From the NCBI GenBank assembly GCA_001464895.1, contig LNEE01000062.1, forward strand, positions 376,333 through 440,332: a stretch of DNA of 64,000 bases, in the 5' to 3' direction. The first letter of the stretch is position 1, and the number at the start of each line of letters is the position of its first letter. The notes under the pieces were generated by a model, which worked only from the letters and a program-made list of their open reading frames with translations, made no database searches and was not told the origin of the DNA. This stretch comes from Betaproteobacteria bacterium Ga0077532 (GTDB taxonomy: Bacteria > Pseudomonadota > Gammaproteobacteria > Burkholderiales > Ga0077523). The translations under genes were made by a program, and so were the position numbers. Positions 47,713 through 59,357 of the stretch are shown in pieces.

Positions 47713-48870
47713 ATGCAGAACGAAAAGCGTTCCTTCGCCGTCTTCCTCGTGATCGGGGTCATCCTGATCGCCGCCGCCGGTGGTGCTGCGTGGCATTTCT
47801 GGAAAGGCCGCGAAGCCCGCGACGCCGCGCAGTCGAACGAGAAGGCCGCCCAGCTCGACGCCGGTCCTTCCGTCGTCGTCGCGAAGGCGGTGCAGGGCCC
47901 CGACGTGCGCCGCCTGAACCTCGTGGGCGAGGCCGCGCCGATCCAGTCGACCACGCTCTACAGCAAGGTGGGCGGCTACCTGGCGCGCATCACCGTCGAC
48001 GTCGGCGACAGCGTGAAAGCCGGCCAGCTCATCGCCGAGATCAACGCACCGGAGATCGACGCGCAGGTGGCCACCATCGCCGCGGGTCTGGAGAACAAGC
48101 GCCGCCTCGCGCAGCGTGCGCGCGAACTGACCAAGCAGGGTTTCTTCTCCCAGCAGGCACTCGACAACGCCGAGAACGAAGTGCGCGTCGCGCAGGCGCA
48201 GATTGGCGAACTGCGCACGCTGGGGGCTTACCGCCTCGTGAAGGCGCCGTTCAATGGCGTCGTCACCAACCGCTTCGCGGACCCCGGCGCACTTGTGCAG
48301 AACGCCTCCGCCAACCAGGCGGCTGCGCAACCTCTCGTGAGCATCGCCGACGTCTCGCGTCTCAAGGTCACGGTGTTCGCCGACCAGGTCGACGCGCCTC
48401 AGGTGAAGGCCGGTCTCGAGGTCGAGGTGTCCGACGCCGCGGCGCCCGATCGCAAGGTGACAGGCCGCGTGACCCGCGTCTCCGGCGAACTCGATTCCCG
48501 CACGCGCACGCGCCGCGCCGAGATCGAGTTCGACAACGCCGCCGATGTCTTCCTGCCCGGCAGCTTCCTCAACGTGGCGATCCTCATCCCCGCCACCAGC
48601 TACGTCGAAGTGCCCGCAGGCGCGCTGGTCACGCGCGAGAAGAAGACGTTCGTCGCCGTCGTCGACGCCGACCACCGCATCCACTACACGCCCATCTCAG
48701 TCGCGGGCACCGACGGCAAGACCGTGCGCATCGAGAGCGGCCTGGACATCGGCACGCCGGTCGCACTGAGTCCGCCGACGAGCCTGGCAGACGGGGGGCG
48801 CATCACGCCACAAAGCCCGCCGGGGGCGCCGAAGGCCCCTGCTGCAGCCGAAGCGCCGAAGAAGCCGTAG
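47713..48870 (+). CDS. RND periplasmic adaptor (membrane fusion protein)
   Basis: 385 residues: an N-terminal membrane anchor (VFLVIGVILIAAAGGAAWHF), biotinyl-lipoyl domain (YLARITVDVGDSVKAGQLIA), a helical hairpin (RRLAQRARELTKQGFFSQQA) and beta-barrel/MPD segments, ending in an Ala/Pro/Lys tail. It couples the RND permease 13 bp upstream to an outer-membrane channel encoded elsewhere. A weak CCTCGC/GCGAGG hairpin (48888-48906) follows the stop. Confidence 0.94.
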   Translation: MQNEKRSFAVFLVIGVILIAAAGGAAWHFWKGREARDAAQSNEKAAQLDAGPSVVVAKAVQGPDVRRLNLVGEAAPIQSTTLYSKVGGYLARITVDVGDSVKAGQLIAEINAPEIDAQVATIAAGLENKRRLAQRARELTKQGFFSQQALDNAENEVRVAQAQIGELRTLGAYRLVKAPFNGVVTNRFADPGALVQNASANQAAAQPLVSIADVSRLKVTVFADQVDAPQVKAGLEVEVSDAAAPDRKVTGRVTRVSGELDSRTRTRRAEIEFDNAADVFLPGSFLNVAILIPATSYVEVPAGALVTREKKTFVAVVDADHRIHYTPISVAGTDGKTVRIESGLDIGTPVALSPPTSLADGGRITPQSPPGAPKAPAAAEAPKKP

Positions 48871-48910: not shown

Positions 48911-49465
48911 CGCGGCGATCGCTTGGGCGCAGCGGCGCATCCAGGAACGCGGGCGTCGAGCTGTAGCTCGACCCACGGGGATCTCCGGACATCGAGCGTT
49001 TCCACTTCCAAACGGTTTCGTGGGTCGAGCAATAGCTCGACGCGGCGATGGCTTGGGCGCAGCGGCGAATCCAGGGACGCGGGCGTCGAGCTGTAGCTCG
49101 ACCTACGGGGATCGCCGCGCATCGAGCGTCACCACGACCAAACGCCTTCGTGGGTCGAGCAATAGCTCGACGCGGCGATGGCTTGAGCGCAGCGGCGCAT
49201 CCAGGAACGCGGGCGTCGAGCTGTAGCTCGACCTACGGGGATCGCCGCGCATCGAGCGTCACCACGACCAAACGCCTTCGTGGGTCGAGCATAGCTCGAC
49301 GCGGCGATGGCTTGAGCGCAGCGGCGAATCCAGGAACGCGGGCGTCGAGCTGTAGCTCGACCCACGGGGATCTCCGGACATCGAGCGTTTCCACTTCCAA
49401 ACGGCTTCGTGGGTCGAGCAATCGCTCGACGCGGCGAGGGCCTGGGCGCAGCGGCGAATCCAGGG
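48911..49465. repeat. REP/BIME-type tandem array, four ~130-bp units plus a partial unit
   Basis: Units begin at 48911, 49041, 49171 and 49300 (130, 130, 129 and 130 bp); a fifth starts at 49430 and decays. Each unit holds two palindromes in opposite orientation: GTCGAGCT-GT-AGCTCGAC (48955-48972 in unit 1) and GTCGAGC-AATA-GCTCGAC (49024-49041). Each palindrome carries GTGG or GTAG at its foot, the hallmark of RAYT-recognised REP sequences. Spacer segments come in two types, arranged A-B-B-A across the units. In one copy (unit 3) a base is missing from the second loop. Confidence 0.9.
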
Positions 49466-49680
49466 ACACCGCGATGGCCTGGGCGCTGGGCCGCCTCCAC
49501 GCCGGAACGAACCTGCATGCCGCACTGCACGATTCCTCGATCCGTTCGCCGCCCATCCCGCCGCCTTTCGCCCGCGCGACGCAGACCGCCCTCCGTACGA
49601 CACCATCACAGGGGTCGATCCCTTGCCGTGCGCATGACACCATCGCAGTTCGCCCACACCACGAACTCGGGATCCACGCC
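49466..49680 (+). other. Gene-free stretch upstream of TRAP operon
   Basis: Between the repeat array and the dctP-like gene there is a degenerate echo of the array (GATGGCCTGGGCG near 49482) and then GC-rich DNA. I see no clear -10/-35 or ribosome site apart from a modest GGGATCC before the ATG. Confidence 0.5.
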
Positions 49681-50658
49681 ATGAATCGCAGACATTTCCT
49701 GGGCGCTGCCGCTGCGCTCACTCTCGCGAGGCCCGCCATGGCCGAGGGTGTCGCGCTCCGCGGCGCCTCGCATCTGGGCGAGGAGCACGTCTATTCGCGC
49801 GCGATGAAGCACTTCATGGAGCTGGTCGTGAAGTACGCCGGCCAGCCCGTTTCCACCGTGGTGCAGCGCAACGGCGAGCTGGGGTCGGACAAGGATTTCT
49901 TCATCTACATGAACCAGGGCATCTCGGTGGACAGCGGGATCATCTCGCCCGCGCACATGGCCACCTTCGCCCGCTCGGCACCGCTCATGGATCTGCCGTT
50001 CCTCTTCCGCGACGTCGCGCACTGGGAACGCGCGCTGGAGGCCGATGCCTTGAAGCCCATCGCCGACGAGATCGCGAAGAAGGCGGATGTCATGGTGCTC
50101 GGTTACGCCGGCGGCGGCGTGCGGCACATCGTCTCGAACCGGCCTGTGCACAACCTCGCCGAGCTGAAGGGGTTGAAGCTTCGCGTGCAGGCGGCACCGA
50201 TCCACTCGCGCATCTTCCAGGCGATGGGGGTGGCCCCGGCGGTCATCGCGTATCCCGAGGTCTACAACGCCATCCAGAGCGGTGTCATCAACGGGCTGGA
50301 GAACGAGCCCGCAGGCATCGAGCAGATGAAGTTCTACGAGGTCGCGAAGTACATCGCGCTCACCGCGCACACGGTCACCGTGCGGCCGCTTTGCTTCTCC
50401 GGGAAGGCGTTCCGCAAGCTGCCGCCCAAGGTCCAGGAGGCCGTGGTGCGCGCCGGTCGCGAGGCCTCGGTCTTCGCGCGGAAGACCGAGGTGCAGGAAG
50501 ATCGTGCGCGACTCGAGCAGATGGCGAAGTCCGGCCGCGTCGAGCTGGTGAAGTTCACCGATATCGCCCGTGCCGAGCAGCTCGTGAAGCCCATCACCCA
50601 GGCCTACGTGAAGCAGGTCGGGGCCGAGGCGATCTACGCCCGCATCGTTTCGCTGTAG
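49681..50658 (+). CDS. TRAP transporter substrate-binding protein (DctP-type)
   Basis: 325 residues with a twin-Arg-like leader (MNRRHFLGAAAALTLARPAM; RRHFLG suggests a possible Tat signal). DctP features include HLGEEHVYSRAMKHFMELV, LAELKGLKLRVQAAPIHSRI with the carboxylate-binding Arg, and YNAIQSGVINGLENEP. The following DctQ, DctM and uronate-dehydrogenase-like genes suggest sugar acids as ligands. A frame through the REP array upstream is not part of the gene. Confidence 0.95.
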   Translation: MNRRHFLGAAAALTLARPAMAEGVALRGASHLGEEHVYSRAMKHFMELVVKYAGQPVSTVVQRNGELGSDKDFFIYMNQGISVDSGIISPAHMATFARSAPLMDLPFLFRDVAHWERALEADALKPIADEIAKKADVMVLGYAGGGVRHIVSNRPVHNLAELKGLKLRVQAAPIHSRIFQAMGVAPAVIAYPEVYNAIQSGVINGLENEPAGIEQMKFYEVAKYIALTAHTVTVRPLCFSGKAFRKLPPKVQEAVVRAGREASVFARKTEVQEDRARLEQMAKSGRVELVKFTDIARAEQLVKPITQAYVKQVGAEAIYARIVSL

Positions 50659-58664: not shown

Positions 58665-59357
58665 CTACGTCGTAACCGGCAGAGCCGGGTACTGCGCCAC
58701 GAGGTGCCCCGTCTTCACGTAGATCAACGCGCCTTCGGTGCCGGTGAACGGGGCGTGGCGGCTGCCCGGCGGATTCCGCAGCCAGGTGCCTGCGGGATAC
58801 TCGCCGGCCTCGTCGCGGAACACGCCTTCGAGCACGAGGATCTCCTCGCCGCCCGGATGCATGTGGAGGTCGAAGATCGTGTCGGGTGCCCAGCGCACCA
58901 GCGCCGTCCCGATGCCCCCGTGCTCGTGCAGCGGCATGACGGACAGGCCGGGCACCAGCCCGCGGCGCCATACGGCCGAGCGCGTATCGATGACGACCGG
59001 CGCGTCGTCGCCCTCGGCGAACTGCCACAGCTTCACGAAGATCGTGCAGCCGTCGCGTGAGAAAGGCGTGTGGGCGGTGCCGATCGGATTGCGGACGTAA
59101 GTGCCGGCGGGATAGTCGCCATGCTCGTCGGAGAAGACGCCTTCCAGGACCAGATACTCCTCGCCACCGCCGTGCACATGGCGCGAGAACGACGTGCCCG
59201 CGGAGTAGCGCACGATGCTCGTGGCGCGTGCGACCTCGTCGCCGATGCGGTCGAGCGGATGGCGCAGCACGCCGGGCATCGGCGAGGGCAGCCAATGGTC
59301 GTCGGCCGGTGCGGCGACGACTTCGCGGCGGTTGAAGTCGGCGCGGATGAGGGGCAT
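58665..59357 (-). CDS. Tandem ChrR-like cupin protein
   Basis: 230 residues with two repeated cupin domains: SFSRHVHGGGEEYLVLEGVF followed by GTYVRNPIGTAHTPF, and DLHMHPGGEEILVLEGVF followed by GTWLRNPPGSRHAPF. These are the ChrR/anti-sigma-like cupins with His/Glu metal sites in both halves. There is no N-terminal anti-sigma helix domain. A duplication event is evident. Confidence 0.88.
   Translation of the reverse strand: MPLIRADFNRREVVAAPADDHWLPSPMPGVLRHPLDRIGDEVARATSIVRYSAGTSFSRHVHGGGEEYLVLEGVFSDEHGDYPAGTYVRNPIGTAHTPFSRDGCTIFVKLWQFAEGDDAPVVIDTRSAVWRRGLVPGLSVMPLHEHGGIGTALVRWAPDTIFDLHMHPGGEEILVLEGVFRDEAGEYPAGTWLRNPPGSRHAPFTGTEGALIYVKTGHLVAQYPALPVTT

Follow-up and report, generated by a model that had tools for sequence, protein, structure and literature searches.

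REPs are short palindromes with a conserved tetranucleotide foot that occur outside genes in high copy, and in BIMEs and REPINs they form inverse pairs, often in tandem. The closest described counterparts of the array treated here are the REPIN clusters of P. fluorescens SBW25 (Bertels and Rainey 2011, PMC3116915), whose unit is an inverted REP doublet and which form ordered, extragenic tandem clusters, flanking sequence included, beside a cognate RAYT. Also close are the GTAG-type REP families (BMC Genomics 2013, PMC3733652), tagged palindromes with 6-9 bp stems that make head-head dimers with conserved spacers and tail-tail dimers with variable ones, the dimers being reiterated in tandem with flanking DNA; the GTGG foot is the majority form in one of them, O. 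terrae GTAG-20. In E. coli (PMC8266576; PDB 4er8), BIMEs have alternating REP orientation and tandem copies, and the homologous RAYT, TnpAREP, has an HxH motif and a Tyr. Between them, PMC3116915 and PMC3733652 already document REPIN clusters that are ordered, head-head spacers that are conserved and tail-tail spacers that vary, dimers in tandem, and the GTGG foot. The array family described below is a new family of this known kind, set apart by its strictly regular, mostly long arrays.

The array and its genomic family

The window, a stretch of 64,000 nucleotides from Betaproteobacteria bacterium Ga0077532, contains one tandem array found by TRF, at 48911-49464 (score 905 for a period of 130, with 4.3 copies and 92% matches; described at a period of 259 it scores 912). 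The array holds eight REP-like palindromes, GTCGAGC-loop-GCTCGAC, with 7-bp stems free of mismatches, 43 nt between neighbors, and the strand alternating about every 65 bp; the sequence-only reading, which had proposed units of ~130 bp with paired inverted palindromes and GTAG or GTGG feet, is thus borne out on both counts, with six GTGG and two GTAG feet. Their order is REP 1 (48955-48976, minus strand, foot GTGG, stem GTCGAGC), REP 2 (49020-49041, plus, GTGG), REP 3 (49085-49106, minus, GTAG), REP 4 (49150-49171, plus, GTGG), REP 5 (49215-49236, minus, GTAG), REP 6 (49280-49300, plus, GTGG, with a 3-nt loop), REP 7 (49344-49365, minus, GTGG), and REP 8 (49409-49430, plus, GTGG). A scan for the foot GT[AG]G followed by a mismatch-free 7-bp stem that closes a 3-4 nt loop returned these eight, none in the remainder of the window, and none in any of 500 dinucleotide shuffles of the array.

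Along the array the order is S2, REP(-), S1, REP(+), and then again, with S2 lying between hairpin ends and S1 between feet. The S1 spacers are of type A at 48977-49019 and 49366-49408 and of type B at 49107-49149 and 49237-49279, whereas the 43-nt S2 occupies 48912-48954, 49042-49084, 49172-49214, and 49301-49343 and is partial from 49431; both array ends fall inside the hairpin-to-hairpin spacer, which is therefore present in five copies, the last one partial. A degenerate S2-like remnant (77% identical) occupies 49465-49499. The REPIN folds into one hairpin (DNA MFE -29.4 kcal/mol, z -4.9; z -4.9 and -5.3 for the two strands), and an Rfam scan gave microRNA models only, all under their gathering scores, as for any hairpin. 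The flanking genes, both on the plus strand, encode an RND membrane-fusion protein (HlyD_D23; 47713-48870) and the TRAP solute-binding protein DctP (49681-50658, start probably 49681). The DctP reading frame, 49048-50658 (536 aa), stays open upstream across most of the array, so automatic annotation may put the DctP start within the repeats.

The scattered copies by which the sequence-only reading proposed to recognize a REP family exist in hundreds: the motif GTGGGTCGRGCN{3,4}GCYCGAC has 521 matches in the genome that the window comes from (G000, a 4.93-Mb assembly of 62 contigs, 89.8% complete) and 779 in a same-genus sibling (G006, MAG Burkholderiales bacterium Bin_40_2), with none for the reversed control in either. 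It is matched in nine of 399 genomes of the order, namely these two, G319 (190 copies), G077 (33), and five with one copy each, and in none of the other ten same-genus genomes. The 190 REPs of G319 are GTGG-footed and, at the places listed, have GTCGGGC stems in the same orientation at other spacings.

The listed G000 clusters and a subset of the G006 clusters, comprising 438 and 214 REPs, were compared; 428 and 212 of these REPs form 63 and 23 clusters of at least two, the 12 single REPs being excluded from cluster counts. In the sampled stretches the foot is GTGG in 425 of 438 REPs in G000 and 210 of 214 in G006. The stem is perfect in 579 of the 640 clustered REPs, and at stem position 5 two paired alleles account for 623 of them (A paired in 378, G paired in 245, other in 17); these alleles stand in a fixed order about S2, with A at the left end and G at the right end in 196 of 277 REPINs and the reverse order in four. 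In 262 of 279 cases 43 nt separate one hairpin from the next, foot-foot gaps are mostly 43-46 nt, and the strand alternates between neighboring REPs in 534 of 554. Both sets of features named above, those of REPs and those of BIMEs or REPINs, are found in this family. At least four REPs are present in 71 of the 86 sampled clusters (maximum 18), whereas in SBW25 doublets dominate (431 doublets; the largest cluster has 12 REPs; PMC3116915); the strict 43-nt hairpin spacer and the GTGG foot also separate the two. The families of PMC3733652 differ in stem and organism group, and its text, though it treats Thauera, contains neither "Betaproteobacteria" nor "Burkholderi". In E. coli (PMC8266576) the GTAG foot tolerates no change and the stem is bulged, in contrast to the GTGG foot and perfect stem here.

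With intergenic positions called by a custom codon-usage gene caller in the G000 and G006 clusters, all 86 are intergenic, though the window is 89.7% coding. Twenty-four lie at contig ends, a practical warning that such arrays break MAG assemblies; of the other 62, 33 stand between codirectional genes, 21 between convergent and eight between divergent ones, convergent pairs being enriched relative to the other gene pairs in the same stretches (14 of 117; Fisher p 7e-4). Homology of the outer flanks largely stops at the foot, and among 97 outer flanks C occupies position -1 in 89%, with CC ahead of most feet of G-type and TTC ahead of most of A-type. Just outside the foot in G000 and G006 arrays, the sequence is mostly TTC before A-type REPs and CCCCC before G-type REPs. 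PMC8266576 reports one system in which a GTAG to GTGG foot change redirects cleavage to CC instead of CT. Natural retargeting through a foot change was considered and dropped: in G077 and three related loci GTGG is preceded by CT in five of nine cases and by CC in none of the nine.

RAYT genes and the history of the locus

The search for an intact RAYT gene, the other check proposed for the REP reading, had a divided outcome. The sibling G006 has an intact RAYT gene flanked by the same REPs, a REPtron arrangement that this family shows in that genome only, and no cognate RAYT was found in the 89.8%-complete G000 assembly; G000 also lacks the gene that neighbors this RAYT in G006, so gene loss and missing sequence look the same there. 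The G006 RAYT (150 aa, on the contig deposited as JALHMS010000033.1) lies between an array of nine and an array of five REPs of the window's family, at distances of 27 bp and about 130 bp. It scores 116.9 bits on NF047646 (cut-off 80), also passes PF01797, and matches TnpArep 4er8 with E 1.6e-7, its H72, H74, and Y125 aligning with the HxH and Y115 of the latter. The REP reading, supported by the hundreds of genomic copies and their intergenic placement, gains a further footing in this gene.

Two other candidates for the cognate RAYT were rejected: C12, a 358-aa frame whose 71.4 bits fall short of the NF047646 cut-off of 80 and which has no window-family REPs adjoining, and a Y1-transposase-like gene at C62:442063 (L055 2063-2389), 1.7 kb past the window end, which is interrupted by a single stop, TGA. 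The sole intact small RAYT in G000, of 161 aa on C56, sits amid a different REP family of type GTAGGAGCGGGCCATGCCCGCGA. This second family with its own RAYT is located at G000:C56 near 58667-59104 (L056, L127), with a related RAYT at G006 C27; motifs resembling it number 21 in the sampled G000 stretches and 18 in those of G006, and none is present in the window.

Among 15 RAYT loci scanned for REPs, out of 80 returned, six RAYTs are 52-57% identical to that of G006, four with GTAG-GTCRGG REPs, one with GTAG-GTGCGGC, and one with none by the scan. The contig JAVHYE010000174.1 (L153), deposited as Pedobacter and possibly misbinned, has a RAYT 56% identical to that of G006 and GTAG-GTCGGGC REPs. 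The Rhodocyclaceae MAG STA_53 (G077) resembles the window's family in its stem (GTCGGGC/GTCGGG), its GTAG or GTGG foot, its inverted doublets, and a RAYT 57-58% identical, but at the places listed most copies there are dispersed doublets, their hairpins about 22 nt apart, rather than tandem arrays.

The array is orthologous in G006, at the same site and with 93.7% identity over 5.8 kb. There (L082, G006:C1, 5823-6852) it is split by about 1.1 kb, and the contig ends in the second part; in the splitting segment one gene encodes a PIN domain (PF01850, 44.2 bits), and an ORF of 128 aa has no Pfam match. The array is absent from the syntenic site of the more distant congener G001, where about 280 bp, with a hairpin of its own followed by T-rich sequence (read by eye), separate the same two genes, whose proteins are 75% and 80% identical to those of the window. 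Flanks of 11 of the 19 array-bearing G006 stretches match a sampled G000 stretch, and a twelfth, L107, is ambiguous; the G000 stretches compared were REP-bearing or Y1-bearing only, which makes the comparison uninformative on sites unique to G006. At the six shared sites complete in both genomes, the paired REP numbers are 10/10, 11/1, 17/9, 6/4, 4/4, and 11/9, so that four of the six differ.

Spacers and possible exchange at the palindromes

S2 is conserved genome-wide (88.6% identity within arrays, 76.6% between), and S1 is 85.7% identical within arrays and 65.7% between, against 45.4% when shuffled. In the window array S2 is near consensus (95%), and S1 is unusual (57%) and closest to the S1 of the G006 orthologue. 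S1 is unrecognizable with S2 kept in five of 73 arrays and the converse holds in four of 73; S2 is therefore not uniquely the core. A paralogous origin of the two spacers from a single 65-bp unit was considered and dropped (consensus alignment score 9 versus 6.6 shuffled, p 0.087).

The sequence-only reading saw the four units as types A-B-B-A and took this order as a hint of duplication of a two-type unit. Nine of their 16 variable columns do follow A-B-B-A, all of them in the S1 tract that runs between feet; the rest read abbb (twice) and aabb, abab, abaa, aaba, and aaab (once each). The order thus holds for the foot-to-foot spacer and not for the remaining unit. As it is limited to one 42-nt tract with which the other columns disagree, it does not show that a two-type unit was duplicated, and a duplicated dimer would in any case read A-B-A-B.

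Across arrays, pooled linkage between unit distances is seen inside spacers (r 0.54 between S1 halves, 0.43 between S2 halves) and is nearly absent across a REP (0.08 and 0.00). With distance-matched 15-mers the difference is weaker (0.21 and 0.34 inside versus 0.09 and 0.01 across a REP; p 0.003, 0.010, 0.052, 0.383). When the two cross-REP 15-mer tests are restricted to G006, one of them gives p 0.025, and a per-array version gives z 2.36 for S1 versus the following S2, so some cross-REP linkage is possible. Because spacers are linked internally but hardly across palindromes, S1 similarity does not decay with unit distance (85.3% at one step, 85.4% at four), and A-B-B-A is confined to S1, we tentatively suggest that the REP palindromes may be exchange points. 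The arrays would then be a pool of swapped ~65-bp REP-to-REP modules, their spacers acting as independently reassorted cassettes, rather than the product of whole 130-bp duplications. We regard this as possible but rather doubtful. Module exchange would perhaps proceed via RAYT cleavage or hairpin-provoked template switching, and chimeric repeat assembly in these MAGs could mimic the signal or contribute to it.

Origin of the array and its meaning

The structure of the array, its genome-wide copies, their intergenic placement, the sibling RAYT between arrays of the same REPs, the change in REP number at shared sites, and the congener site without an array are observed. On this basis the array is, with high confidence, a REPIN cluster, most likely spread by a RAYT in an ancestor and then locally amplified in tandem; mobilization by that RAYT, the tandem amplification, and the absence of a dedicated role for this copy are the parts that we infer. 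On this reading the REPIN is a miniature non-autonomous element in which two inverted REPs, with GTGG feet outward, enclose the conserved 43-nt S2 between their hairpins, such elements being joined head to tail by the 43-46-nt S1 between feet. The spread of the REPIN into positions between genes most likely took place in the ancestor that the window's species shares with G006, by the action of a RAYT, a single-strand Y1/HUH transposase predicted to recognize the foot together with the hairpin. Tandem copies would arise locally and be lengthened, shortened, and homogenized through recombination or replication errors at the repeats. Since S1 is common to most arrays, either the spreading units were larger than a single REPIN or sequence passes between arrays. 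Transposition itself was not observed.

The array could instead be kept as a functional BIME-type element between the efflux and TRAP operons, serving as a transcription end or attenuator, a stabilizer of mRNA 3' ends, or a topology site; E. coli BIME-2 binds DNA gyrase. The position of arrays near gene 3' ends, the excess at convergent pairs, and retention of the array in G006 speak for such a role, but tolerance of insertions also yields REPs after gene ends, the REP number varies at most of the complete shared sites, and in G001 the same gene pair does without the array, having its own hairpin and T-rich sequence. We consider a retained function unlikely. A plain tandem repeat grown by local slippage and unrelated to REPs would account for the period of 130 and the high similarity within the array, yet the 130-bp unit recurs at dozens of other loci, which refutes this origin, unit similarity does not drop with distance, and in G006 there is the RAYT neighborhood; we give slippage very little credence. 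Palindromic repeats at regular intervals, separated by spacers of close to 43 nt, also bring to mind a CRISPR or an integron attC array, but here the spacers are repeated rather than unique and copies lie at dozens of loci. Integron attC sites have RYYYAAC/GTTRRRY core sites, and the array contains none on either strand. Either identification is scarcely credible.

The array adds to the known systems a REPIN family of a Burkholderiales genus, numbering about 500-800 copies, with a RAYT identified in a sibling; most of the copies are GTGG-footed and most stand in long regular arrays. The literature searched gave no report of such arrays in Burkholderiales, a weak negative, subscription journals being outside its scope. 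The family offers a compact natural system for questions of array growth and exchange points, since REP numbers differ between two close species at sites they have in common and ten other congeners are without it. Palindrome-bounded reassortment, if true, would be the one reading that lifts the family beyond the known kind.
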